Below are positions 6,400-47,002 of a DNA stretch of 64,000 nt, in pieces. How positions within the stretch are numbered: position 1 is the stretch's first letter; each line of letters begins with the position of its first letter. The notes below the pieces were generated by a model. That model was given only the letters and a program-made list of their open reading frames with translations. It did no database searches and was not told where the DNA came from. The stretch is from Halobacteriovorax marinus SJ (GTDB taxonomy: Bacteria; Bdellovibrionota; Bacteriovoracia; Bacteriovoracales; Bacteriovoracaceae). The DNA lies in NCBI RefSeq assembly GCF_000210915.2, contig NC_016620.1, positions 620,001-684,000 on the forward strand, given 5' to 3'. Position numbers and translations under genes: made by a program.

Positions 6400-7220
6400 T
6401 AGACCTTTGCTTTTGCCTGAATGAATGAATAGTAAAAGACTGCATTTGGATCACTCGCAACCTGTCTCATTTCCTTTTTCATTCCTTCTACAACTTCCTC
6501 AGTAACTCTTTCTGCTTTTATTAACTGATCGGCAGCAGAGAGAAGAAGCTCATGCCAAAAATCGATATATTCTTTTCTCTGCTTTGGTCTTCTATTATCT
6601 AAGTGCCATGTCACAGTATCAATATGTATATCTTTAAAACCTTGTTGAAGTAATAAGTTTCCAAGCTTTGCTCCAACAAATGGGTCACCTTTCATATCGT
6701 ATTGATAATCATTGAATGCCATCCAATACTTCCATACGTTTGGTGAGTATGGATCGAGTAGAAATGAAGAGTTGAGAACTTCTGTAATATAGACAGGTGA
6801 GCCTGGACGTAACACTCTTCTTACTTCACTCAGCACTTTAGCTGGGTTTGGAATATGCTCAAGTACCCAGCATAGAAAACCACCATCAAATGATTCTCCT
6901 TCAAACTCCATATCTGTTGCATCCATCTCTTTATAGTCATATCGACCTTCAAAACTTCCAATTGATTGTAGGTAGTTCTTAGCTGTCTCAAGTTGTTTAT
7001 CTGAGCGATCAATTCCTGTGACGTGAAGGTCTGGAAATCTTCTTAAAAGAATTTCAGTCTGCGCGCCAACACCACTTCCAACTTCTAGGATATTTCTTTG
7101 CTCTGAAAAGTTAATTTCCTTATAGACTGTATACTCTGCAAATTTGGCCTGCTTTGCTAGTCTTTGTTGTTCAGTATTGCTGAAACCATGTAAGTAAGGA
7201 AAGTCTGTTTTCTCATTCAT
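6396..7220 (-). CDS. Class I SAM-dependent methyltransferase
   Basis: A 274-residue methyltransferase with the Rossmann motifs of the UbiE/Methyltransf_11 group. Motif I is ILEVGSGVGAQTE (about residues 44-56), the acidic residue ending strand 2 is in GIDRSDKQ, and motif IV is GGFLCWVLEHI followed by LRPGSPVYITE. The substrate cannot be named. It starts 8 bp after coaX and so appears to be the last gene of the IlvC-like-panB-coaX operon. Whether it contributes to CoA metabolism or is only co-transcribed is open. Confidence 0.85.
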   Translation of the reverse strand: MNEKTDFPYLHGFSNTEQQRLAKQAKFAEYTVYKEINFSEQRNILEVGSGVGAQTEILLRRFPDLHVTGIDRSDKQLETAKNYLQSIGSFEGRYDYKEMDATDMEFEGESFDGGFLCWVLEHIPNPAKVLSEVRRVLRPGSPVYITEVLNSSFLLDPYSPNVWKYWMAFNDYQYDMKGDPFVGAKLGNLLLQQGFKDIHIDTVTWHLDNRRPKQRKEYIDFWHELLLSAADQLIKAERVTEEVVEGMKKEMRQVASDPNAVFYYSFIQAKAKVY

Positions 7221-7930: not shown

Positions 7931-8714
7931 TAGCTTTTGCGACCTCTTGATTTTTATTTAAGTAATTTGTAATAAGATCTTTTTTCAAATCAAATAAATT
8001 AGCAATGGGTGTACAAAACTTTGGCGGCGTGTGCGGCCCTTCTTTTAAAAGGTCGTTTATAACTAGGACTTGTCCGTCTGTTTTATTGCCAGCACCAATT
8101 CCTATCGTTGGGATTGAGAGCTTTTCTGTAATTGCTGTTGCGATTTCACTTTTTACACATTCAAGTACAACTGCGAATACGCCTGCCTTCTCTAGATTAA
8201 TGGCCTGCTCAAGTAGTTTCTTGGCCGAGGCATCATCCTTACCGTGAACATAGTATCCACCTAATTCATGAACAGATTGAGGTGTTAATCCAATGTGTCC
8301 CATAACTGGAATACCAATTTGAGTGAGTCTTTCTATTAGCTCTAATTGATAAGGAAAGGCCCCTTCTAGTTTTATTGATTCTACATTTGAATATTGAAAG
8401 AGTTTAGTTGCACTCTCAATTCCTTGCTCAAGAGTTGAGTAGCTTCCAAATGGTAAGTCTGCGACAATAAATTTATTAGGAGCACCTCTTTTAACTGCCG
8501 CTGAGAAGATTTTCATTTCCTCTAAACTCACTGGGACTGTAGTCTCATAACCAAGCATGACGTTGCCAAGACTGTCTCCAACCAAGAGCATATCAATACC
8601 TGTCTGTTCCAACATCTGTGCTGTTTGAAAGTCATAGCAAGTTAGCATTTGCAAAGAATGCTTCTCCCTTTGAAGTTTATGACTTTTAATTTTAAGAGTT
8701 GTGAGTTTTTTCAA
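7908..8714 (-). CDS. panB: 3-methyl-2-oxobutanoate hydroxymethyltransferase
   Basis: Transfers a hydroxymethyl group from methylene-tetrahydrofolate to 2-ketoisovalerate, giving ketopantoate. The 268-residue protein shows the TIM-barrel motifs MLTCYDFQTA, LVGDSLGNVMLGYETT (metal-binding Asp), GHIGLTPQSVHELGG and the catalytic-glutamate region VLECVKSE. GIGAG near residue 205 is the phosphate-like binding loop. It follows the IlvC-like gene by 7 bp and overlaps coaX, placing the next pathway enzyme candidate directly beside it. Confidence 0.96.
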   Translation of the reverse strand: MKKLTTLKIKSHKLQREKHSLQMLTCYDFQTAQMLEQTGIDMLLVGDSLGNVMLGYETTVPVSLEEMKIFSAAVKRGAPNKFIVADLPFGSYSTLEQGIESATKLFQYSNVESIKLEGAFPYQLELIERLTQIGIPVMGHIGLTPQSVHELGGYYVHGKDDASAKKLLEQAINLEKAGVFAVVLECVKSEIATAITEKLSIPTIGIGAGNKTDGQVLVINDLLKEGPHTPPKFCTPIANLFDLKKDLITNYLNKNQEVAKANVQPSVH

Positions 8715-33226: not shown

Positions 33227-33363
33227 AGCTAACCACTTGAAATTATGTGTTCTATACCTCGCAAAACCCTAAATATTTTTCACGTATATTTAGTGAGGCT
33301 TCTCTATATGATACATGGCAATGAGAGTGTTTTTTAGTGAGCAAATTTCACCATTGGAGATGT

Positions 33364-34527
33364 ATGAATACAGTCATAGAGCATGCCAAATTAACTGATG
33401 TTAATGAGTTATTGTCACTGTATTTGTCAGTCTACGGTGAAGACTATCCTCTAGATATTGGAACAAAACGATCGGTTATGGAAGAGGCCCTCAATCATCC
33501 AGAGGAAAACCATTGGTATGTGATGAGATGTACCGATTCAAATCAAATTATAGTATCTGGCATTATTCAAATTGAAAGAGAAAACCTAATTGGTAAATTA
33601 TCAGGGGTTGCTGTTCACGATGAATACAGAAAGCATGGGCTTGCTACAGGGTTCATTGGCCATGTTGTAAATGAGGTCCTTAAAGAAAAGAAACTTGTAA
33701 ATTCAATTTATGCGACTGCAAGGACTATCTCTCACTCTTCGCAAACAATGTTGATGAAGAATGGATTTATTCCACTTGGCTTTTTTCCAAATTGTAGAAG
33801 AATCAAAACCTATGAGACTTTGGCCCTACTTGCAATTTTCGCAGATGGAGTTCTAGAAAAAAGAAAAGTTCCTACTGTTGTTCCAGAATCTGTAGAGCCA
33901 TTTTATTCTCTCGTTGAAAAAGAGATTACTGGAAATGATGCTCATTTTGATACTGCCCCTTGTTTAATTAAGAGAGATCATCAGTTTAAGGATTTGACTT
34001 GTAAAGAGGGAGAGTTCGAATTTATTTTTGCAAAGAACTTCGTGGAGAAGAGATTTGATGAAACCTTTAAAGAGGATAGAGAGTCAGTCTTTTATCCATT
34101 TCACAGACCCAATCTTCTTATCTCCAATATGGAAGAGGGGATTGAAATATTCGCGGCCTTTAGTAAGAAAGATCACTACTGTGTCATCATTACGGCCAAT
34201 AAAAGTATTATCTCATTGGGAGAGAAAATTAATAAGATGCTCTTTGCAATGAAGGAAATTGGAATCTACTACGTAGAAACAATGGTTCGATCTGATAGAA
34301 GAGAGCCAATATGCTTTTTAACTGAAAATAACTTTCTTCCCTCAGCTGTTTATCCGGCAATGAGATTTGAAGAAGGCGTTGGGCAAGACTATATTCTCTT
34401 GGCAAGAACAATGGTACCACTAGACTTTAGTGAGCTTTCAATCCATAAGTCATTTAAGCCATATCTTGATCAATATGCAAAACAGTGGATTGATATGCAC
34501 CTAAATATTCTTAGGGTGAACTCATGA
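33364..34527 (+). CDS. GNAT-family protein with probable second GNAT-like half
   Basis: A 387-residue protein. The first half is a clear GNAT acyltransferase domain: LSGVAVHDEYRKHGLATGFI near residue 85 contains the acyl-CoA binding R-x-x-G-x-A loop. The second half (about 215-365) shows the same order of strand and helix features (MKEIGIYYVETMVRSD, then AMRFEEGVGQDYILLARTM) without the loop, so it may be a degenerate copy. I start it at the ATG at 33364, which has GGAGA in front. Its stop overlaps the LuxE-like start by 4 bp, so it is the first gene of that operon. Confidence 0.7.
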   Translation: MNTVIEHAKLTDVNELLSLYLSVYGEDYPLDIGTKRSVMEEALNHPEENHWYVMRCTDSNQIIVSGIIQIERENLIGKLSGVAVHDEYRKHGLATGFIGHVVNEVLKEKKLVNSIYATARTISHSSQTMLMKNGFIPLGFFPNCRRIKTYETLALLAIFADGVLEKRKVPTVVPESVEPFYSLVEKEITGNDAHFDTAPCLIKRDHQFKDLTCKEGEFEFIFAKNFVEKRFDETFKEDRESVFYPFHRPNLLISNMEEGIEIFAAFSKKDHYCVIITANKSIISLGEKINKMLFAMKEIGIYYVETMVRSDRREPICFLTENNFLPSAVYPAMRFEEGVGQDYILLARTMVPLDFSELSIHKSFKPYLDQYAKQWIDMHLNILRVNS

Positions 34528-35678
34528 AGTCACTTGAAGTTGTAGATAAGAAGTCATTATCTAGAGTCGAAGAACTCTGTAACCTTGAGCGTCCTTACGA
34601 GTATTCGAATGAAAATGACAAACTCTTTGTTGAGGCCATGAAGGAAAATATTCTCTGGCATAGAGAGAGAAATGAGTTTTATAGAAAATTATTGAACTCT
34701 AGAAAGTTTGATACAAGTAAACTTGTAGATATCAAAGATCTTCGTGAAGTTCCTTTCATTATTGCAAACTTTTTTAAATATCATGAGACTAAGTCAGTGA
34801 CTGAGGAAGAGGTTTATCTTCACTTAACATCATCGGGAACGACGGGACAAAAATCTCAAATTTTCTTTGATGAGTGGACCATAGGTAGTGCTCAGGCAAT
34901 GGTTGATAAGATATTTAACTCCTATGGATGGATCAGCCAAGAGAAAGTAAATTACTTACTCTTTACCTATGAACCAGAAGAGGGAAGTAAGCTCGGTACT
35001 GCATACACAGATAACTTCTTATGTAAGTATGCACCAATAAATGAAGTTAAATATGGATTGAGGTTTCTTGGAAAAGACGAAGGTCATAAATTTGATGTCT
35101 TTGGATGTATAGAAGCTCTACAGAAATTTGAAAAAGAGGGACGTGCGGTAAGAGTTTTTGGATTTCCATCTTTCTTTTACTTCACTCTAACTAAAATGAA
35201 AGAGCTAGGTATCGCGCCATTAAAATTGAATAAAGACTCCTTGGTCTTCTTGGGCGGAGGCTGGAAAGGGCATCAAGACAAGGCCATTTCTAAAAAAGAA
35301 TTCTATTCTCTGTGTGAAGAGATGCTTGGTATACCTAATGAAAGATTGAGAGATGGGTTTGGATCAGTAGAGCACTGTATTCCCTATGTGGAGTGCTCTG
35401 AGCATCGATTTCATATTCCTGTTTGGTCACGAGTACTGATTAGAGATGTCGATACTCTTGAGCCTGTCGAAGAGGGAAAGCCTGGATATCTTAATTTGAT
35501 ATCACCTTATATTACGTCGGTTCCTGCAAATAGTGTATTGATGGGCGACTTGGCCATTGTAAAGAGCGAGTGCTCATGTAATTTAAATACACCTTGGTTT
35601 GAAATCTTGGGACGTGCAGGGATTTCAAAGAATAAGAGTTGTGCCGTGGCAGCTAGTGAGCTCTTGGAGAAAATATGA
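34524..35678 (+). CDS. LuxE-like acyl-protein synthetase
   Basis: A 384-residue adenylate-forming enzyme of the LuxE/PaaK family. The SSGTTGQKS phosphate loop is at residues 103-111. The C-terminus holds SCAVAASELLEKI with Cys373, in the position where bacterial LuxE carries the acyl-accepting cysteine. LuxE activates a fatty acid with ATP and passes it to LuxC for reduction. Here it lies in an operon with a LuxC-like protein but no luxAB. A real substrate is not known. It is coupled on both sides by 4-bp overlaps (ATGA). Confidence 0.85.
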   Translation: MKSLEVVDKKSLSRVEELCNLERPYEYSNENDKLFVEAMKENILWHRERNEFYRKLLNSRKFDTSKLVDIKDLREVPFIIANFFKYHETKSVTEEEVYLHLTSSGTTGQKSQIFFDEWTIGSAQAMVDKIFNSYGWISQEKVNYLLFTYEPEEGSKLGTAYTDNFLCKYAPINEVKYGLRFLGKDEGHKFDVFGCIEALQKFEKEGRAVRVFGFPSFFYFTLTKMKELGIAPLKLNKDSLVFLGGGWKGHQDKAISKKEFYSLCEEMLGIPNERLRDGFGSVEHCIPYVECSEHRFHIPVWSRVLIRDVDTLEPVEEGKPGYLNLISPYITSVPANSVLMGDLAIVKSECSCNLNTPWFEILGRAGISKNKSCAVAASELLEKI

Positions 35679-38074
35679 TGAGTATTTTATGCCAGGGAAA
35701 ATATTTAGAAGAGCTTACAAAGACAGAACTAATTAGATACGTGTTAGAGGGGATGTCTACTGATCTTCACCTCGATGAAATCATAGATTGCTTAGACCAT
35801 TTTTCAAAAAATGTTGAGAGTCTAGAGATGGACGCCTTTCTTCTTGCCGAAATAAAAGAATTTTGTAGCAAAGATAGTCTCAAACAAAAGATCGTCTCTG
35901 AGCTTGGTAATCACGAACCATTTAGTATAAAGAAAAATGAATTCCAAAATGCTGAGATGGAGGGCTACGCACCTCTAGGAAGTCTATTGCATATCACTTC
36001 GGCAAACTCTGAAGGCCTTTCATTTCTTGCCTTAGTTGAAGGACTAATATCACAAAATATGAATATCGTTAAACTCAGCAGAAGAGATGACGATTTATGT
36101 TTTAAGTTAGTAGAGCAATTACTTAAGCACGATAGAAGCGAAAAACTGCAAAAGAGAATTTTACTTTTAAAGAATCAAACTTTAGATCTCTCAGACTTGA
36201 TTGATGTGGTCGATGGAGTTTCGTGTTGGGGTGGTGATAGTGCTCTTGAGAGCATTAAAGCGAAAGTACCAAATAATAAGAGATTTATACCTTGGGGACA
36301 TAAAATATCTTTTGCCCTTATTGATAATAACTCAGCTAACGCAGAGACTAGTCGAAAATTAGTTGATGAGATTCTCTTAAATAATCAACAGGCATGTTCA
36401 GCTCCTCAAGTATGTTACTTACTAGACGCAAGCTATGAGCAATTGATGGATTTTGCGCAATTATTATCTGATTCATTCTCTACACATGAGGACTGCAATG
36501 AGCTTGATTTGGATATTCAACAAAGAGCTGAACTCACAAATTATAATGAATTATTAAGACTTGAATCTCTATTTTTAGAAAAAAATCTAATTACTTCTAA
36601 AAAGGGTGAGTGGAGAATTTATATAGAGAAGAATAGTGATTTTAAGGCCTCTCCTTTAAATAGAACTATTTGGATCAAGTCTATTACTTCGAATAATATA
36701 GTTGAAACTTTCCAAAAACATAGAGGCTACTTGCAGACAGTAGGTCTTTCAATTTCTGAAGATAACTTTGATGTCATCAATTACATCTTAAAGGCAGGTG
36801 TGACGAGAGTAAGAGAACTTGGAAGAATGCAGGAATCTTACGGAGGCGAGCCTCATGATGGAGAGTATGCTTTAAGAAGATTTGTTAAAAGAGTCAGTCT
36901 TGATCTAGATATTCTAAAAAGAAATTATCGTCTAGATGAAAAAAGTGAAGGGCGACAAATTATTAATAAGAGTTTACCCGTAATGACTAAGGAAGATTTT
37001 CAAAGCTTATCTCTTGATGATGAGAGAAATAAGCTCTTCTTTAGAAGTGGGGGAAGCTCAGGTAAAAGCGCGCTCTCTACATTCTCTTACCATTCATATC
37101 ATACACAGATGTTGGCGGCCTCTGAGGGGCTCTATGCTGCTGGTCTTGATCCTAAGAATGATCGATGTATGAATCTCTTCTTCGGTGGAGGTCTGTATGG
37201 AGGATTCTTAAGTTTCTTTACAATATTGGAAAAAATGAAGGCCTTGCAATTTCCTATGGCCGCATATGAGGACTTAGAGTTTGTCGCAGAATCTATTGTT
37301 GAGTATCAAGTTGATACACTACTGGGAATGCCATCATATATTGTGGAACTCTTCACTAAAAAAGGTAGCATTCTAAAGAAGGGTTGCATAAAGAAGATCT
37401 TCTTTGGTGGAGAGCACTTTCCTGAAAAAATGAAGACTCTTTTAATTAAAGATTATGGGGTTGAGATTATACGCTCCGCTAGCTATGGGTCAGTTGATGC
37501 TGGACCACTTGGCTTTCAATGCGAGTACTGTGAAGGTTCTATCCATCATTTAAATGAAAGCATACAGTCACTAGAGGTTTTATCTCTAGAGTCTGATAAA
37601 GAAGTGCCTGACGGTGAAGTGGGCAGATTAGTCTTCACGTCAAAGGCCCGAGAGACGCTATCGATTGATAGGTATGACTTAGGGGACCTTGGAAGAATTG
37701 TTAAAGATAAATGTCGTTGTATGAGAAAAGGGCTACGCTTTGAGCTTCTAGGGAGAGCTGGAGATATCTTTAGAAGTGGTGGAACTTTTTTTAATTTTCT
37801 TAAGTTCGAAAAAATCCTAAAAGATAGTTTTGAATATAGTGATCAATTTCAAATTATACTTACAAATGAATCCACTAAAGATACAATAAATTTATACTTG
37901 AATGGCATCACGATAGAAGAAGTGGACTTTGCATCTAAGTATAAAGATTTAAGTGAAGCTTTTTGTCACGAGTTAACAACCGATTTTAAAGTTATAAAGT
38001 CACTTAGTTCAGATTTTATCTCCTCAAAGAGTAGTGGAAAAATCCTAAGAGTAGTAGACCAGAGGAAGTATTGA
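35675..38074 (+). CDS. LuxC-like acyl reductase fused to PaaK-like adenylating domain
   Basis: A 799-residue two-domain protein. Residues 1 to about 415 match the LuxC acyl-CoA/acyl-protein reductase family: APLGSLLHITSAN (cofactor-binding region), the active-site cysteine C241 in NNQQACSAPQVC, and RELGRMQESYGGEPHDGEY near the end. Residues about 435-799 match PaaK/LuxE-like adenylating enzymes: FRSGGSSGKSA at 456-466, a RSASYGSVDAGPLGFQC segment and FELLGRAGDIF. The fusion suggests direct hand-over of an activated acyl group to the reductase. Cofactor (NADPH) and acyl specificity are not readable. Confidence 0.85.
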   Translation: MMSILCQGKYLEELTKTELIRYVLEGMSTDLHLDEIIDCLDHFSKNVESLEMDAFLLAEIKEFCSKDSLKQKIVSELGNHEPFSIKKNEFQNAEMEGYAPLGSLLHITSANSEGLSFLALVEGLISQNMNIVKLSRRDDDLCFKLVEQLLKHDRSEKLQKRILLLKNQTLDLSDLIDVVDGVSCWGGDSALESIKAKVPNNKRFIPWGHKISFALIDNNSANAETSRKLVDEILLNNQQACSAPQVCYLLDASYEQLMDFAQLLSDSFSTHEDCNELDLDIQQRAELTNYNELLRLESLFLEKNLITSKKGEWRIYIEKNSDFKASPLNRTIWIKSITSNNIVETFQKHRGYLQTVGLSISEDNFDVINYILKAGVTRVRELGRMQESYGGEPHDGEYALRRFVKRVSLDLDILKRNYRLDEKSEGRQIINKSLPVMTKEDFQSLSLDDERNKLFFRSGGSSGKSALSTFSYHSYHTQMLAASEGLYAAGLDPKNDRCMNLFFGGGLYGGFLSFFTILEKMKALQFPMAAYEDLEFVAESIVEYQVDTLLGMPSYIVELFTKKGSILKKGCIKKIFFGGEHFPEKMKTLLIKDYGVEIIRSASYGSVDAGPLGFQCEYCEGSIHHLNESIQSLEVLSLESDKEVPDGEVGRLVFTSKARETLSIDRYDLGDLGRIVKDKCRCMRKGLRFELLGRAGDIFRSGGTFFNFLKFEKILKDSFEYSDQFQIILTNESTKDTINLYLNGITIEEVDFASKYKDLSEAFCHELTTDFKVIKSLSSDFISSKSSGKILRVVDQRKY

Positions 38075-39315
38075 AACAAAACCTAAGAGAGCATATTGAT
38101 TTTGTAAGAGAGAATTCACCTTTTTATAAGGAACTCTATAGGGATGTCCCCCTCAAAGATTATAGTATTTCAGATCTTCCTATTTTAAATCAAGATGACT
38201 ATTGGTCTAAGAATGGATTTGAGAATAATTCCGTACTAACGTCAGACTTAAGTGATGGAGTTGTCTTTAAAAGCGGCGGAACAACAGGTGTTCCAAAGTC
38301 TAGCTTCTTCACGCAAGAAGAGTGGGAGACGTTTACAACGGATTTCTCATTTGGAATGGATCAGCTAAGACTTCAAAAAGGGGATCGTTGTGCAAACCTA
38401 TTCTACTCTGGTGATCTCTATGCATCTTTTTTATTTATTAATAAGAGTGTGGAAAAGTTAAAGAATAAGGTTGTGCAATTTCCAGTTACAGGTCAGACAA
38501 GTATTGAAGAGACAAAGAGAATCATAAACTCTTACAAGATAAATGTTCTCTTTGGTGTTCCAACATCTTTAGTGAGCCTGGCAGCCTCATTTGAATCAAG
38601 TGATAATTGTATTAATCAAATTTACTATGGAGGAGAGCCACTTTTTGATGATCAAAGAGAGAAACTTCAAAGAGCATTCCCAGAGGCTCATATCTCTTCT
38701 ATTGGTTATGCAAGTGTTGATGGTGGTCAGCTTGGATATGTCGATAAGAGTTGCACAGCAGGTGAGCATATTGTTTTTGATAAAACTTATATGGAGATTG
38801 TAGATCCAGATACAAATGAAGTTATTCTAGAAGAGAATAAAGTTGGGCGCCTTATTTATACAAACTTATCTAGAAGACTTATGCCCATCGTTCGCTATCC
38901 AGTTGGTGATATGGCCTCGTGGACAGAGGTAGGTAAGAGGTTCTCTCTTCTGGGGAGGGCCGACGAAGGAGCGAGAATTGGTGCGGTAACTGTGACTCGT
39001 GAGGATATAGTGAATACTGCGGCCTCAATCGGAGAGAAACAGGCAATTTCGGGGGTCCAATTAATAATCAAACGAGAGAGTGGCAAAGATTATTTGCACG
39101 TCTATTTAGGTGTTCAGAGTAAAGAAAACCTAAATATTTTAAACTACGTTCATTTATTTAAAGAGTCCTTTTTTATGCAAAGACCTATGTATAAGAAGGA
39201 GAAAGATATTGGAAATATTGCAGATTTAAAAGTTTCAATAGTATTAGTTGACGAATTATTGAAGAATCCTAGAACGGGTAAATTAAGGTTAGTTATAGAC
39301 GAAAGATTCATCTAA
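38071..39315 (+). CDS. PaaK-like adenylate-forming enzyme
   Basis: A 414-residue relative of phenylacetate-CoA ligase/LuxE, resembling the C-terminal domain of the protein upstream. Motifs are KSGGTTGVPKSSFFT (residues 67-81), SIGYASVDGGQLGYV and FSLLGRADEGARIG. It starts at TTG, in the stop codon of the fusion gene (4-bp overlap), with GAGGA just upstream. It could activate a second acid that condenses with the aldehyde or amine made by the operon. No terminal condensation enzyme other than the GNAT protein is seen. Confidence 0.85.
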   Translation: MKQNLREHIDFVRENSPFYKELYRDVPLKDYSISDLPILNQDDYWSKNGFENNSVLTSDLSDGVVFKSGGTTGVPKSSFFTQEEWETFTTDFSFGMDQLRLQKGDRCANLFYSGDLYASFLFINKSVEKLKNKVVQFPVTGQTSIEETKRIINSYKINVLFGVPTSLVSLAASFESSDNCINQIYYGGEPLFDDQREKLQRAFPEAHISSIGYASVDGGQLGYVDKSCTAGEHIVFDKTYMEIVDPDTNEVILEENKVGRLIYTNLSRRLMPIVRYPVGDMASWTEVGKRFSLLGRADEGARIGAVTVTREDIVNTAASIGEKQAISGVQLIIKRESGKDYLHVYLGVQSKENLNILNYVHLFKESFFMQRPMYKKEKDIGNIADLKVSIVLVDELLKNPRTGKLRLVIDERFI

Positions 39316-39377: not shown

Positions 39378-40739
39378 TTGAAAATCTTATTGGCCCAAAA
39401 CAATCACAAAATAAAGGATAGGCTAAATCTGTACTTAGATAACTTGCCTACAAACGTAGATGTCTACGAAGTTTCCTCTTATGGAGAGCTGGAAGAAAGG
39501 TTGAGCCAAGATCCTTCAATTGATATTACGATTTCATGTCATATGAGTGCTAAATTAGAGGGAATGAAGATCTCGGGTCTCTTATTGAATGGGCATCAGA
39601 GTGATTTAATTGTTAATACGACTGAGTCCTTAGAAGACTCACTAGAATATAAGGCCTTTTCCAAGCTAGATAGTAGAGGTCAAATCATTCAAAACGATAT
39701 CAATTGTGAATCTTTTCATAATTTAATCTTAGATATTTTAAAGAAGAGAAGAAATTTAAATTTTCAATATGCAGAGGAGGAGTATCGAAAGGTAAGACTT
39801 TCATACTTTCTAAGATTTAATAAAGTTCTCTGTGATGTCTTTATCAAAATCAATGATGATAAATATGTCAAAGTTCTAAGAAAGGATGATATTTATACTC
39901 GAGATGATCTTCAAAGATATAGAGAGAAGAATATAAAATTTCTCTATATTAATTCTGAAGATTATGATGACTTCGGCGCAAGTTTAGCAACAACTCCTTT
40001 TCTTATTGAAGATAGAAACTTAGATCCAAAGTACTTGGACGATGCGGTTGTTAATACATTAGATATAGTTCATGAAATGGTACTGGAGTCTGGTTTAACT
40101 GATGAAGTGGTAAACCTAGTAGACTACACTGCTTATCAAATAGAGAGTAGTCTCTCTAGTGATAGAATTTTAAATAGGCTTCTCTCTATTTTAAAAGATA
40201 GAAAGGACTACTTATTAGATCATAGTTATATGATCGCCTACTTTTCAAATTCAATTTGTTCTCATATGGAGTGGGACTCAGAAGAAATTAGAAAGAAGCT
40301 TAGTTATGCAGCAATATTACAAGATGTTTGTTTAAGTGATGCAAAAATGGCAATGGTAATGAACTTACAAAAGCCAGAAATGACTGAGTATACTCCAGAA
40401 CAAATTGCGCACTATCAATCTCACCCTGAACAAATTGCAAATATTGTAAAGGCCAATGATACGATACCTTTAAATGTTGATGAAATTCTTCTCTCTCAGC
40501 ACGAGAAACCTGAGGGGAATGGCTTTCCTAGAGGGCTTAGTCACCATAGAGTTTCTCAGCTTTCAGCAGTATTCATTGTAGCACACGCATTTGTGGATGA
40601 ACTCTACAGAGAAGAGTTTGATCTTACAAAGATCCCTGTCATTATCAAGAGAATGGAAAAGAGGTTTAGCGTAGGTAATTATAGAAAGCCATTAGAGGGG
40701 CTTATTAACGTATTTCAAAAGTCTATTGAAGTTGCGTAG
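39378..40739 (+). CDS. Degenerate receiver/HD-GYP protein
   Basis: A 453-residue protein starting at TTG (GGAGA eight bases upstream). Residues 1-120 resemble a receiver domain that lacks a clear phosphorylation pattern. Residues about 220-450 resemble the HD-GYP c-di-GMP phosphodiesterase fold: H282 in LDHSYMIAYFS, then QD at 315-316 (ILQDVCL) where active enzymes have HD, and SQHEKPEGNGFPRG where HHExxDGxGYP is expected. So the metal site is damaged and the protein is likely a non-catalytic sensor or partner. It follows the LuxCE-like operon by 62 bp and may be co-transcribed. Confidence 0.75.
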   Translation: MKILLAQNNHKIKDRLNLYLDNLPTNVDVYEVSSYGELEERLSQDPSIDITISCHMSAKLEGMKISGLLLNGHQSDLIVNTTESLEDSLEYKAFSKLDSRGQIIQNDINCESFHNLILDILKKRRNLNFQYAEEEYRKVRLSYFLRFNKVLCDVFIKINDDKYVKVLRKDDIYTRDDLQRYREKNIKFLYINSEDYDDFGASLATTPFLIEDRNLDPKYLDDAVVNTLDIVHEMVLESGLTDEVVNLVDYTAYQIESSLSSDRILNRLLSILKDRKDYLLDHSYMIAYFSNSICSHMEWDSEEIRKKLSYAAILQDVCLSDAKMAMVMNLQKPEMTEYTPEQIAHYQSHPEQIANIVKANDTIPLNVDEILLSQHEKPEGNGFPRGLSHHRVSQLSAVFIVAHAFVDELYREEFDLTKIPVIIKRMEKRFSVGNYRKPLEGLINVFQKSIEVA

Positions 40740-41653: not shown

Positions 41654-42307
41654 TTATATGTTTACTTTGAAATTCTCATCCCAAGTTGAGAATGGTTCTG
41701 ACTTAAGAAAGTTTATTGTGGAACGGCATTGTAAGCGAATATTTCTAATTTGCGTTTCTTTATTCAGATACTTAAGGTGCTCACAGTGCTGCTTTATTAT
41801 GCTAGAGCTAAGGATAATGGCCATATGTGACACATGAGAAATGATCGTAATGACGGCCCAAAACCTACCATCTAATGGTATTTCTTCTCCAACTTCTTCT
41901 GTGACTAGCTTTAAGAAGAGCCATCCGGCCGGAGGACCGAGCTTTGTTACACAAACTCCTGAACCATCTTTTGAGAAGTCCAGGTTTTCGTTGAGAATCA
42001 GTCTAAAGGTATTGAGAAGCTTAGGGCTATTTGTTGTGTAAAACTCAAACATGGCAACTGCAAAGTCCTCTAAGCTCATTCCCTCTTGATATAGTTTAGA
42101 GAGCTGATCTTCTACTTCCTCACAGTTGTTATTAAAGACCTCTAAATAGAGGTTTTGCTTGTTGCTAAAGTGGTAGTTCACAGATGCTAGGTTCACATCT
42201 GCTTCTTTAGCAATGTCTCTTACAGAAGTGCCGTCGTAGCCCTTACAACCAAAAAGCTTTAGGGCCACATTGATAATTTTACATTTAGTATCATTAACTT
42301 TTGTCAT
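41654..42307 (-). CDS. TetR-family repressor of the efflux operon
   Basis: A 217-residue regulator with the TetR helix-turn-helix in residues 10-50 (IINVALKLFGCKGYDGTSVRDIAKEADVNLASVNYHF, shown here only for its TSVRDIAKEAD core). The C-terminal ligand domain is variable. It starts 8 bp after the RND gene and so is the last gene of the operon it probably regulates. The palindrome before the first gene is the proposed binding site. Confidence 0.85.
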   Translation of the reverse strand: MTKVNDTKCKIINVALKLFGCKGYDGTSVRDIAKEADVNLASVNYHFSNKQNLYLEVFNNNCEEVEDQLSKLYQEGMSLEDFAVAMFEFYTTNSPKLLNTFRLILNENLDFSKDGSGVCVTKLGPPAGWLFLKLVTEEVGEEIPLDGRFWAVITIISHVSHMAIILSSSIIKQHCEHLKYLNKETQIRNIRLQCRSTINFLKSEPFSTWDENFKVNI

Positions 42308-42315
42308 AATTATAC

Positions 42316-45300
42316 CTATGCTAATTCTTCGCTTCCGTCCATATCTTCTTCAATATGTTTCTTTCTCTTGGTAATTCTATTAACTAAATTTAGGAAATCT
42401 TCCAAAATTGCATACGCTGGTGGAATAAAAGAAAGTGTAAGTATTGTACCAGAAGTCAGTCCCCAGGCCATAGCAAGAGTCATTGGAACGAGAGTCGGGT
42501 CTGAACCACCAACACCGTAAGCTGTAGGGAAGAGCCCACTAACAGTAGTTAGAGATGTTACAAGTACTGCTCTTAATCTCATTCCTGAAGCTTTGATGAG
42601 AATCTCTTCTAGAGATAGTTTTCCCTCTGCCCTCATTTCATCAATGAAGCTGATAAGAACAATTCCTGAGTTCACGATAATTCCTGCAAGTCCGATAATT
42701 CCAATAAGTGCAAGAAAGGAAATTGGTCTTGTTCTATCCATATAACCACTTAGAACTGGTGTCGCAAAAGCAATTGAGAAACCAAGTAGTCCAAGAGGAA
42801 TAGTCATCATGATAATAAGTGGTCTTAAATAAGATTTAAATAAGAATACTAGTATTGCAAAAATTCCAATGGCAGCAAGTACACTGGCTTGAGCCAAACT
42901 TTCCATTGATTCTTTTGTCGACTCAGCAACTCCACCAAAGACTAGAGAAACACTTGGGAAATCTTTTCTTAGCTCCTCATAAGTTTTAAGAAGAATTTGG
43001 TTCGCTTCCATTGCTGTAATTTTCTTTTCATTGATAGACCCAGCTAAAGTCTTTGATCTCTTAAAGTCAAAGCGCTTAATTTGAGGCGTACCATCTTTAG
43101 TTTCAAATTTAGCAAATGTTCCAAGTGGGACTAGATTTCCTCTTGAATCCATTATGTTTACATCTTTTAGTTTAGTAATATCTGTTCTGTCGCTTTCTTT
43201 AAAACTAACCCTTAAATCAACATCTTTATTATTTAAAGTAACCTCTGAGATAATTCTTCCTGAGATAGCACTTCTAACAGTGTCTCCTGCATTAAAGATA
43301 TTAAGTCCTAGTTGGTCTGCTTTTTCATAGTCTATATTGATAAAGACTTCATCATCACCAATGATATCGTTTACTTTAAGATCCAGAACTCCAGGCACTT
43401 TCTCTAGTCTTGCTTTGATTTTACCAATTAGACTGTCGAGTTGTTCCATATCATTTGATCTAAATGTCGCTTCAATATCACTCCCTACTGGAGGTCCATT
43501 GACTTGAGCTTCGAAAGTTAAACTCTTGTAACCGTCCTTAGGAACTTGCGCTCTAAGTTTTTCAAGAACTGTTGTGTAGAAGAGATTGAGCTTGGCTTCA
43601 TCTGTAACATAGATGAAAACAATACCTACATTATTTCCCTCTGTTGCTTTAGGGTCAGTAAGTTGTACTTTTGATTCTCCAGACTTTCCGATTAGGTGTT
43701 TTACATCTTTTCCAAGAACTTCTTTTATATCGTTAGAGAGATCTCTTAGTTTGGAGTTTGTTTCTTCTAGTTTCGTACCATTCGGTAATTCAAATCTTGC
43801 AATGTAAATCTCTGTTTGATCAGCAGGGAAGAGAATAAACTTATTTCCCGCAGTCATCATAAAGAGAGCGAAAACAATCAGAGCAGAGAAACCTGCTACG
43901 GCAATGTATCTTCTTCTTACGATTACAGTCATGATTTTTTCAAACTTATTTTCAAATTTGTGGAACCAGTCTTTCTTAGAATTTCCATCTTTATCTTTTT
44001 TGACTGAGTTCCCTGCACTCACTAATCTCATTGGAAGAAAGAAGAAACTCTCTACTAAAGAAAGCAGTAGGGATATTGTTACAATAATTGGAATCCACTT
44101 AATGAACTGCCCCATGATCCCTTTTGTAACTAGCATCGGTAGGAATGCGGCGATTGTCGTAAATGCAGTGGCGGTAATAGGAAGCCATAGACTTTTTATA
44201 GACTCTAATGCTGCTTCTTTTGAGTTCTTACCTTCTTGCCTTAGCCTTGTGAAGTTCTCAGAGATAACAACTGAGTTATCAACTAACATTCCTAGAGCGA
44301 TAACGAGGGCCAAAACCGTAATGGTATTCAAGTTCATACCAAATGCCGGCATAATTCCTAGAGTCCCCATAATTGCTAGAGGAAGTGAGAGCGAAGCCAT
44401 GAGCCCAATTTTACCCGGTAAGAAAATAAAGAGGAACACGATAACTAGAATAAGTCCTGAGACTGCGTTGTTGGCCAATACATCTAGTTTATCTTTAACC
44501 TTAATCGACTCATTCAAGAAGACTTTAAAGTCTGCTTTATCTGTATAAAGTTTTTCATATTCATGAAGCTTCTTTTCGACATCGTCAACGAGAGTAATTG
44601 TATCTGCGCCAGCTTTTTTGGCAATCGTTAATAGCGTTGCCTCTTCACCGTTATACCTTGTTCTAACTTTTATTTCTTCTTCACCGTCAACAACTTTAGC
44701 AACGTCTTTTAGGTAGATAGACTGCCCAGAGAAGTTCGATCTAATTAGGATGTTTTCAAGTTCTTTTGTGTTCTTAATCTTTCCTTCTAGGCGAAGCAGT
44801 TGTTGAGTCTTATCTTGCTTTAAGTTACCACCTGGAATATTAACATTTCTAGCTTGGATTTTAGAGATTAACTCTTGCATACCAATATGATGTTTATTGA
44901 GAAGGTCGTTATTAACTTCTATTTGAAATGTTCTCTTGGCAAATCCTTCTAGGGTAACACCTTTAATGAGCTTATTATCTTCTAACTCTTCTTTTAAATG
45001 GTCAGCAATAATATCTCTACTTCGATTTTCATTACTACCTAAAACCGCAATTTGAAAGACTGGCATCTCCTCTGATTTGATTTCACTAAACTTTGGTCTA
45101 TCGATGAGGTCTGCAGGTAACTTATTTGTTCTATCGACAGCTTTTTGAATATCACTGATGACTGTTTCTACATCAATTCCAGCTCTGTCCATATCTACTC
45201 TGATGACGATTGTACTTAGACCAGATTGACTTGTGGAGTTTACATCCTTTAGTCCTCTTACGGTTCTAATTTCATCTTCAATTGGTTTCGTAATCTTTGT

Positions 45301-45483
45301 CTCAATATCCTGCGCCGTCGCACCATCGTAACGAGTCGTCACAATTGCAGTAGCGAAACTAACGTTTGGATAAGACTCCGCATTCATTTTTGCTAGTCCC
45401 ATGATTCCATAAATCAAAAGTCCCAACATGAGAACGATGGAGAGTTTAGAGTTGTCTATAAAGAATTTTGAAAGTGTTTTCAT
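42316..45483 (-). CDS. RND-family efflux transporter, inner-membrane pump
   Basis: A 1055-residue AcrB/HAE1-type proton-driven pump. Two sets of membrane helices flank large periplasmic loops. The N-terminal helix (FFIDNSKLSIVLMLGLLIYG), porter segments such as NVNIPGGNLKQDK, and GMLVDNSVVISEN in helix 4 are seen. In AcrB this last segment has two aspartates (D407-D408); here the first is kept and the second is Asn. The operon has an outer-membrane factor but no membrane fusion protein. Substrates are not readable. Confidence 0.9.
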   Translation of the reverse strand: MKTLSKFFIDNSKLSIVLMLGLLIYGIMGLAKMNAESYPNVSFATAIVTTRYDGATAQDIETKITKPIEDEIRTVRGLKDVNSTSQSGLSTIVIRVDMDRAGIDVETVISDIQKAVDRTNKLPADLIDRPKFSEIKSEEMPVFQIAVLGSNENRSRDIIADHLKEELEDNKLIKGVTLEGFAKRTFQIEVNNDLLNKHHIGMQELISKIQARNVNIPGGNLKQDKTQQLLRLEGKIKNTKELENILIRSNFSGQSIYLKDVAKVVDGEEEIKVRTRYNGEEATLLTIAKKAGADTITLVDDVEKKLHEYEKLYTDKADFKVFLNESIKVKDKLDVLANNAVSGLILVIVFLFIFLPGKIGLMASLSLPLAIMGTLGIMPAFGMNLNTITVLALVIALGMLVDNSVVISENFTRLRQEGKNSKEAALESIKSLWLPITATAFTTIAAFLPMLVTKGIMGQFIKWIPIIVTISLLLSLVESFFFLPMRLVSAGNSVKKDKDGNSKKDWFHKFENKFEKIMTVIVRRRYIAVAGFSALIVFALFMMTAGNKFILFPADQTEIYIARFELPNGTKLEETNSKLRDLSNDIKEVLGKDVKHLIGKSGESKVQLTDPKATEGNNVGIVFIYVTDEAKLNLFYTTVLEKLRAQVPKDGYKSLTFEAQVNGPPVGSDIEATFRSNDMEQLDSLIGKIKARLEKVPGVLDLKVNDIIGDDEVFINIDYEKADQLGLNIFNAGDTVRSAISGRIISEVTLNNKDVDLRVSFKESDRTDITKLKDVNIMDSRGNLVPLGTFAKFETKDGTPQIKRFDFKRSKTLAGSINEKKITAMEANQILLKTYEELRKDFPSVSLVFGGVAESTKESMESLAQASVLAAIGIFAILVFLFKSYLRPLIIMMTIPLGLLGFSIAFATPVLSGYMDRTRPISFLALIGIIGLAGIIVNSGIVLISFIDEMRAEGKLSLEEILIKASGMRLRAVLVTSLTTVSGLFPTAYGVGGSDPTLVPMTLAMAWGLTSGTILTLSFIPPAYAILEDFLNLVNRITKRKKHIEEDMDGSEELA

Positions 45484-45503
45484 ACTATATCTCTGGTCTA
45501 AAA

Positions 45504-46946
45504 TTAGTTATTTATTTTACATGGCATTTCTGTGTAAACAGTAAAGTAGTCCATGAGTGTTGTAATAATTGATAATTGGCTTTGAACTTCAAGTAAATTA
45601 CTACTTAGAAGCGCATCTTGGTCGAGAATAAGGTCTCTAAAAGATACTCTTGCTTGGTTATACTTTTTCTTTGTGTGCTTTAAAGTAATACTTAGCTTTT
45701 CGCTATTGATATTCTGCTGTTGGATTACTTGTTGTAGAAGTTTAATATTCTTTACCACTTGTGAGTGATAGGCATTAACCTTCGCAACAATTTCTTCTTT
45801 TTGAGAAATGAATCTCTTCTTGTCTAGTAATCTTTGTAGTTCTTCAGACTTTGAAGTACTTCCCCCAAGAGGAATCTTAACTTCAATACCAGCAGAAAAT
45901 GATGTTCTTCCATCATCTGAGAATTTATCCCAAGCATTTGAGTATCCCTCTGTCTTTCCTAATCTTCTGACCTCTGAGATGAGGTTTACATTAGCTGCAT
46001 TATAGGAGTTGGTAATCTTTCTTTGTTGAGAATATTCACTTTGTAGTGATTTTAAAATTTCATCGTAGTTAGAGTACTGAAGTGGAGCTTCATTAAAAGA
46101 TGATATCTGAGCAATACAGCTTAAAAGTTCTTTTGATGTATTATCAATAGAGTAACTTCCTAAAACAACCTCCTTATTAGAGAAGTTTGGAAGAAGTTCT
46201 TTTAGTTGTTGAATAAGTACTTCTTTTTGATACTGAAGATTTATAATTCTTGCCTTTCTATCAGCAATCTGTGATTCAGATCTTGAGACTTCACTAATTT
46301 CAGCAATCTTATTTCGGTACTTCTTTTTAGAGTCAACTAATTGCTTCTTTGACAGCTCTAAGAGTTCTTTTGAGATCTTAAGTTGCTCATTATTGGCCAC
46401 TAGAGACCAATAGATCTTTCTTAGAGTTAAGTAGAATGATTTCTTCTGTATACCTTTTTGAAGATCTGCACGTTGGACACTTTCCTTTAGAACTTCTCGT
46501 TGAGCACTTGTTAGTCGCCCAAGAAAGTTCTTGTAAAGGTCCATTGAGAATTGGGCACCAAAACCATTTGTGGTTCCCTTATTTACGTATGAGCTTGTCA
46601 TCTGTTCTGAAAAAGTATTTACGCCAATTTTCATTCCTGTACCAAGTCCTTTTTCAACACCGACTTTGTAGCTTTTAATAGGTGAGCTAACTGGAATTTG
46701 AGGAGTAAAAGAATTTTCTGATGTCTTATAGTAATTGGCAGACCCAACAAGATTAAAGTCAAAGTTCTCTTCAAAGAGTTCTCTTTGGAATTCTACAGAT
46801 AGATAACTTGCTTCAATGGCCAAAGTGTTAGGAGCAGAGTTGTTGACCTCTTTCTTTATAATATCTTCAGTTAATGTGATGGTTTCTTGTGCAATAGTAT
46901 TCGCACCCATTAAGGCGATTAGCGATGCGACCTTTAAAATTTTCAT
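45504..46946 (-). CDS. TolC-family outer-membrane efflux protein
   Basis: A 480-residue outer-membrane factor with a signal peptide (MKILKVASLIALMGANTIAQ) and two long helical hairpin regions (about 125-235 and 315-440) typical of the TolC tunnel, with alternating Lys, Ser and Gln. I choose the ATG at 46946 with AAAGGAAG in front; the frame extends eight residues further to 46970 without support. It is the first gene of the operon and lies just after the operator-like palindrome. Confidence 0.85.
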   Translation of the reverse strand: MKILKVASLIALMGANTIAQETITLTEDIIKKEVNNSAPNTLAIEASYLSVEFQRELFEENFDFNLVGSANYYKTSENSFTPQIPVSSPIKSYKVGVEKGLGTGMKIGVNTFSEQMTSSYVNKGTTNGFGAQFSMDLYKNFLGRLTSAQREVLKESVQRADLQKGIQKKSFYLTLRKIYWSLVANNEQLKISKELLELSKKQLVDSKKKYRNKIAEISEVSRSESQIADRKARIINLQYQKEVLIQQLKELLPNFSNKEVVLGSYSIDNTSKELLSCIAQISSFNEAPLQYSNYDEILKSLQSEYSQQRKITNSYNAANVNLISEVRRLGKTEGYSNAWDKFSDDGRTSFSAGIEVKIPLGGSTSKSEELQRLLDKKRFISQKEEIVAKVNAYHSQVVKNIKLLQQVIQQQNINSEKLSITLKHTKKKYNQARVSFRDLILDQDALLSSNLLEVQSQLSIITTLMDYFTVYTEMPCKINN

Positions 46947-46964
46947 TTTTATTCTTCCTTTGGA

Positions 46965-47002
46965 ATTCAAACGTTTGTTTGACTTTAAACGAATGTTTGA
47001 AT
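46965..47002. promoter_or_regulatory. Operator-like palindrome for the TetR regulator
   Basis: Left arm ATTCAAACGTTTGTTT (46965-46980) and right arm AAACGAATGTTTGAAT (46987-47002) are inverted repeats matching at 14 of 16 positions, with a six-base spacer. It sits directly upstream of the ribosome site of the TolC-like gene. The arms contain AAACGTTT-type half-sites commonly bound by TetR proteins. Confidence 0.7.

Follow-up and report, generated by a model that had tools for sequence, protein, structure and literature searches.

A probable leupeptin-type operon in the predatory bacterium Halobacteriovorax marinus

We analyzed a stretch of 64,000 nucleotides (hereafter the window) from Halobacteriovorax marinus SJ, a marine predator of bacteria belonging to the class Bacteriovoracia of the Bdellovibrionota. 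The window covers positions 620,001-684,000 of the 3.44 Mb genome (contig NC_016620.1) and contains four plus-strand open reading frames that encode, in order, a GNAT N-acetyltransferase, a LuxE-family acyl-protein synthetase, a LuxC reductase fused to a PaaK-type ligase (LuxC::PaaK) and a second, free PaaK-type ligase. This operon is the known leupeptin-type pathway in an overlooked host and not a new system. Its homology to the characterized operon makes it very probable that the four genes produce a small N-acylated peptide aldehyde without a nonribosomal peptide synthetase (NRPS), a product that most likely inhibits serine or cysteine proteases. The operon also has features of its own, namely a GNAT gene in first position, a GNAT of another subfamily, no adjacent exporter gene and a host in a predatory phylum.

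Relationship to the leupeptin operon

The leupeptin operon leupABCD was reportedly described by Li et al. in 2020 (Angew. Chem. 59:17872) from Klebsiella michiganensis/oxytoca, Photorhabdus and Xenorhabdus. Leupeptin (Ac-Leu-Leu-argininal) is a peptide-aldehyde protease inhibitor that is made without an NRPS (PMC8283571, PMC11480411, PMC11212599), and the published hosts of leupABCD are Klebsiella, Photorhabdus and Xenorhabdus (PMC11480411, PMC8283571). The published primers leupA_f and leupB_r (PMC8283571) match the locus of K. michiganensis DSM 25444 (L109) with zero mismatches, at 6918-6938 (+) and 8133-8152 (-) of that locus, and would give a product of 1,235 bp, equal to the published size. 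By these matches leupA corresponds to LuxE and leupB to LuxC::PaaK, and the gene order of the locus then makes leupC the free PaaK and leupD the GNAT. An MFS transporter gene adjoins the leup genes there.

The window LuxE is 48% identical to K. michiganensis LeupA, 51% to the Xenorhabdus protein and 54% to a Streptomyces copy, while the fusion is 36% identical to K. michiganensis LeupB over its full length and the free PaaK 37% identical to LeupC. The GNAT is the most divergent component. BLAST gave 22% identity to Klebsiella LeupD, which was not significant, and hhalign gave a remote match between the N-terminal halves of the window GNAT and of gammaproteobacterial LeupD (134 columns, 96.5% probability, E 8e-10). 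To the GNAT of an operon on a Streptomyces plasmid, the window GNAT is related over its full length (32%). Like leupABCD, the window operon holds LuxE, LuxC::PaaK, a free PaaK and a GNAT in a tight arrangement with all catalytic residues kept. Unlike leupABCD, in which the LeupD gene is last, the window operon has its GNAT gene first, and this GNAT comes from a longer, remotely related subfamily in a host of a different phylum; the MFS gene that adjoins the K. michiganensis locus is also missing beside the window operon.

A preliminary description of the window, made from the sequence alone, knew of no described system with this gene order and ranked the operon as the best candidate in the window for a new one. 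The match to leupABCD (PMC8283571, PMC11480411, PMC11212599) refutes both statements. That description had itself named the same gene order in a characterized natural-product cluster as a refutation, and leupABCD provides this apart from the position of the GNAT gene. Our literature search on LuxE/LuxC/PaaK clusters returned nothing naming the system. A search for a link between leupeptin and Halobacteriovorax found no paper, although most subscription papers lay beyond its reach and the novelty of this link is therefore unproven.

Catalytic residues and comparison with lux systems

The genes and domains of the operon are as follows.

33364-34527, + strand: GNAT N-acetyltransferase, 387 amino acids (aa), two GNAT-like domains (Pfam Acetyltransf_10/1)
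34524-35678, + strand: LuxE-family acyl-protein synthetase, LeupA homologue (Pfam LuxE, 143 bits)
35675-38074, + strand: LuxC::PaaK fusion, LeupB homologue, 799 aa (LuxC residues 51-405; PaaK residues ~432-797)
35825-36889, + strand: LuxC reductase domain of the fusion (Pfam LuxC, 250 bits)
36962-38071, + strand: PaaK-type ligase domain of the fusion (NCBIfam PaaK model, E 1e-25; PDB 4r1l, E 2e-23)
38071-39315, + strand: free PaaK-type ligase, LeupC homologue, 414 aa, TTG start (NCBIfam DVU1553/PaaK models)

The Pfam cut-offs are 24.9 bits for LuxE and 21 bits for LuxC; the GNAT match barely exceeds its own cut-off, and both PaaK units were recognized through NCBIfam PaaK-type models with scores below the cut-offs of those models. 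An in-frame GTG at 33337 offers an alternative GNAT start but relatives favor 33364. As the preliminary description had stated, neighboring genes overlap by 4 bp, which we confirmed at every junction. A promoter and terminator scan found no more sites than in shuffled sequence.

The active-site residues named in that description, the LuxC cysteine in ACSAPQ, the SSGTTG loop and the C-terminal LuxE cysteine, are present and are invariant or nearly so in our alignments. The LuxC domain cysteine C241 (QQACSAPQ, 36395-36397) is conserved in all 40 homologues, and in LuxE the SSGTTG loop spans residues 103-108 and the nucleophile is C373 (35640-35642), with S103, S104, G105, T106, G108 and C373 invariant across 39 sequences. 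The fused PaaK unit carries the A10-type C-terminal lysine K789 (38039-38041), invariant in the alignment, and the free PaaK carries K404 (39280-39282), invariant in 36 homologues. When aligned with the solved LuxC-LuxE complex 7xc6, C241 falls on the DQQAC cysteine of LuxC and C373 on the KGC cysteine of LuxE, and the window LuxE matches chain 7xc6_E with an E-value of 9e-36. A PDB search with the fusion gave a PaaK ligase and LuxC from the fatty acid reductase complex as its nearest solved relatives. Confident AlphaFold2 models confirmed the folds and gave no substrate prediction: the fusion model (mean pLDDT 88.6) has Foldseek matches to 7xc6_A and to PaaK 4r1m and 2y27, and the GNAT model (mean pLDDT 88.6) shows two GNAT-like halves with Foldseek matches to many GNATs, among them tandem GNATs such as 2wpw. 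The free PaaK and the fused PaaK domain are paralogues with 28% identity (E 5e-37).

The operon shares with luxCDABE the LuxE and LuxC families and an acyl-cysteine relay but differs from it in having no luciferase, in the fusion of LuxC to a PaaK domain and in the extra ligase and GNAT. The reported absence of luxAB held up genome-wide, with zero matches to Bac_luciferase (PF00296) and a control search that was positive in 10 genomes. The luxD family (PF02273) also had zero matches in the genome, though its control search matched nowhere either. The window copy is the only full-length LuxC match in the genome, with one weak partial match elsewhere. NatL2 (6siw/6tm4), ClxA (9s3l) and EhpF (3hgu) use the PaaK-like fold of the window ligases to assemble natural products in other pathways, and none is known to be fused to LuxC or placed in a GNAT/LuxE operon. 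NatL2 and ClxA serve there as stand-alone ligases, in keeping with the leupeptin-type reading. As a template, the griseoluteic acid pair EhpF/EhpG was set aside, since the PaaK half alone matches it, and weakly.

Proposed pathway and product

The following pathway is proposed step by step from homology to leupABCD. The GNAT, in the role of LeupD, would N-acetylate the amino acid in first position, which is Leu in leupeptin. The free and fused PaaK ligases would each adenylate a carboxylate and couple it to the following amino acid through the amine of the latter, and the two peptide bonds so formed would give a tripeptide acid. LuxE would then adenylate the C-terminal carboxylate and load it on C373, from which the acyl group would move to C241 of the LuxC domain to be reduced to the aldehyde by a nicotinamide cofactor. 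In leupeptin biosynthesis separate AMP-dependent ligases work with a reductase (PMC11212599), and the reduction of its peptide acid to the aldehyde uses a nicotinamide cofactor and ATP (PMC7714073). This ATP-supported reduction is the chemistry of LuxE and LuxC and so fits a leup reading of the window genes. The earlier proposal of an acyl-to-aldehyde reduction combined with joining by the extra adenylating enzymes, unconnected to luminescence, is probably right, but it had the aldehyde forming first and being joined afterwards. Leupeptin biosynthesis follows the reverse order, in which joining of the peptide comes before the final reduction of its C-terminal carboxyl (PMC7714073). Further, the NRPS condensation domain (PF00668) had zero matches in the genome with a positive control, whereas NRPS peptide aldehyde clusters of the antipain type have condensation domains.

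Several observations weigh against this interpretation. No exporter gene adjoins the window operon, and the accessible literature yielded no expression or product data on this organism. The GNAT-LeupD match is remote and confined to the N-terminal part, which leaves room for another acyl cap or another first amino acid, and the 36-37% identity of the ligases is too low to transfer amino-acid specificity. It is quite conceivable, if somewhat doubtful, that the aldehyde is leupeptin itself, and it would otherwise be a close relative.

A peptide aldehyde that differs from leupeptin in its residues or N-cap would follow the same logic and is a sub-case of the leupeptin-type reading, not an exclusive alternative; we regard it as having nearly an even chance. 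It would agree with a GNAT subfamily that differs from LeupD (22%, not significant by BLAST), with ligases just 36-37% identical to the leup ligases, with relatives that own a three-gene set lacking the fourth gene, and with the production by K. oxytoca of a Lys analogue alongside leupeptin (PMC11480411). However, strong conservation with the leup enzymes is seen in LuxE and in the motifs around the adenylation sites (GGEH, YGSVDAGPLG). The aldehyde may alternatively be an intermediate that is cleaved and cyclizes to a pyrazinone signal, as reported for Photorhabdus and Klebsiella. Strains with leup genes do make a leupeptin-derived Leu-Arg pyrazinone that alters gene expression (PMC11480411), but the window operon encodes no cleaving protease and we consider this outcome improbable.

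Readings outside the leup family fare worse. The matches of LuxE and the LuxC domain to the fatty acid reductase complex 7xc6, and the weak similarity to EhpF that profile comparison gave for the PaaK units, would suit reduction of a fatty or aromatic acid to an aldehyde in a lux-like or EhpF/EhpG-like manner, with PaaK units that merely form CoA thioesters. This is very unlikely given that the genome lacks the luciferase family, that this exact fusion with two PaaK units and a GNAT is the leup set and neither the lux nor the ehp set, and that LuxE is far closer to LeupA (48-51%) than to the LuxE of lux systems. It is more improbable still, to the point of being hardly credible, that the operon belongs to a locus for modifying surface glycans or flagellin. 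While luxE and luxC genes have been reported from flagellin glycosylation islands (PMC4875605), none of the genes annotated in the operon and its neighborhood was recognized as a sugar or flagellin gene, and we found no report in the literature of a LuxC::PaaK fusion in such islands.

Distribution and significance for a predator

Of 59 sampled genomes, 22 carry the fusion. All of these belong to the same family as the window, while the 22 genomes that represent other families of the phylum gave no match. The GNAT-LuxE-fusion-PaaK set occurs in 17 genomes including the window, two of them without a recognized adjoining GNAT. It is kept together in several quite different surroundings and therefore behaves as one unit, far beyond chance. 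In a sample of the class, 79 of 129 genomes carry LuxE of this protein family, which by hand count comprise 44 leup-like copies (>470 bits), 32 of a divergent three-gene type (~300-370 bits) and 3 weak matches. Four further relatives have a three-gene GNAT-LuxE-LuxC::PaaK set without the free PaaK. By LuxE score this divergent variant is widespread (32 of the 129 class genomes), and its predicted product would have one less peptide bond. Variant loci in relatives of the same family are L037-L040 and L125-L132. Putatively secreted, metallopeptidase-like proteins with a HEARH (HExxH) motif adjoin the three-gene variant (L125, 11300-12439; L126, 3437-4570 and 4762-5898; L129, 2503-3600 and 4213-5322), in two copies at some loci, and are accompanied by a gene for a small protein that looks membrane-anchored.

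A single-protein query with the fusion gave zero matches in genome contigs and an alignment query was needed; the alignment-based scan of 84,980 species genomes identified 368 relatives. The best 80 of these 368 include Photorhabdus, Xenorhabdus, Klebsiella michiganensis, Pantoea and Burkholderia as well as Massilia, Rugamonas, Streptomyces and Kutzneria. The module of LuxE, LuxC::PaaK and PaaK recurs in Pseudomonadota, Actinomycetota and Bdellovibrionota. A GNAT accompanies it in nearly every case, and an MFS gene frequently does. The gammaproteobacterial order is (MFS-)LuxE-LuxC::PaaK-PaaK-GNAT. The window operon shares its GNAT subfamily, and usually its gene order, with uncharacterized GNAT-LuxE-LuxC::PaaK-PaaK(-MFS) operons of Streptomyces, Kutzneria, Massilia and other Bdellovibrionota, although these often add an MFS gene (MGEFP, GMEFP, PMEGF) that the window operon lacks. 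An MFS gene adjoins the operon at no fewer than nine other Bdellovibrionota loci, and is accessory rather than defining, as it is also absent at the Xenorhabdus and Photorhabdus leup loci in the scan. In some actinobacteria the PaaK gene is set apart from the rest of the operon.

Several neighboring genes were observed at these loci. Downstream of the window operon by 62 bp is a gene for an HD-domain (HD_5) protein (39378-40739), which adjoins the operon genus-wide and in L025, and the operon of a member of the Halothiobacillaceae (L104) is likewise adjoined by a response regulator with an HD domain. On the minus strand of the window at 41654-46970 are genes for a TetR-like protein, an RND efflux pump and a TolC-like outer membrane protein, and the same genes are near the operon in L021-L024, L030 and L036. 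We do not assign them as the operon's exporter, since shared synteny accounts for their proximity equally well. An actinobacterial serine hydrolase adjoins the operon in L077 (11788-13200, Beta-lactamase family with DUF7586) and L070 (11775-13163, same cluster). A full LuxE-LuxC::PaaK-PaaK-GNAT operon is also present on a conjugative IncF plasmid of Salmonella enterica (L123, CP054717.1, 6872-12630), amid recombinase and toxin-antitoxin genes, and represents a mobile leup-like operon.

In a tree of LuxE and the fusion (68 rows, quick method with SH-aLRT support, root placed on the three-gene variants) the actinobacterial operons form one clade and the enterobacterial and related operons another, both among many deep Bdellovibrionota branches. 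The window copy groups with Halobacteriovorax, and the leup clade falls within the window copy's family. By this topology, the well-studied enterobacterial operons would form one part of a family that is wider and may be older, although the placement of the root and the long branches meeting there mean that the direction of transfer is not proven.

Leupeptin inhibits trypsin with a Ki of 88 nM (PMC7714073), and in the H. marinus genome 16 matches fall in the trypsin family and 2 in the papain family, so the host's own proteases are possible targets. Among genomes of the same family as the window that are at least 90% complete, counted by hand, the mean number of trypsin-family matches was 13.4 in 19 genomes with the fusion and 11.7 in 10 genomes without it. 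As this is no clear difference, we claim no link between the operon and protease load. Possible roles of the product are self-protection, timing of digestion, defense against protist grazers and pyrazinone signaling. We offer as a speculation, and a rather doubtful one, that the leupeptin-type pathway has an old reservoir in Bdellovibrionota predators, where an aldehyde other than leupeptin controls proteases during predation and the three-gene set leads to a shorter, dipeptide-type aldehyde. The distinct tandem GNAT and the diverged ligases would then set the product, and the targets would be the predator's own proteases or those of its prey or grazers.

These data correct the 'bioluminescence' annotation given to such LuxC genes, which the Streptomyces copy carries as a Gene Ontology term. 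They also extend the range of the leupeptin-type pathway from enterobacteria and streptomycetes to a predatory class. That a predator living by digesting bacteria carries a pathway for a trypsin-type inhibitor poses a direct and testable question about its role.

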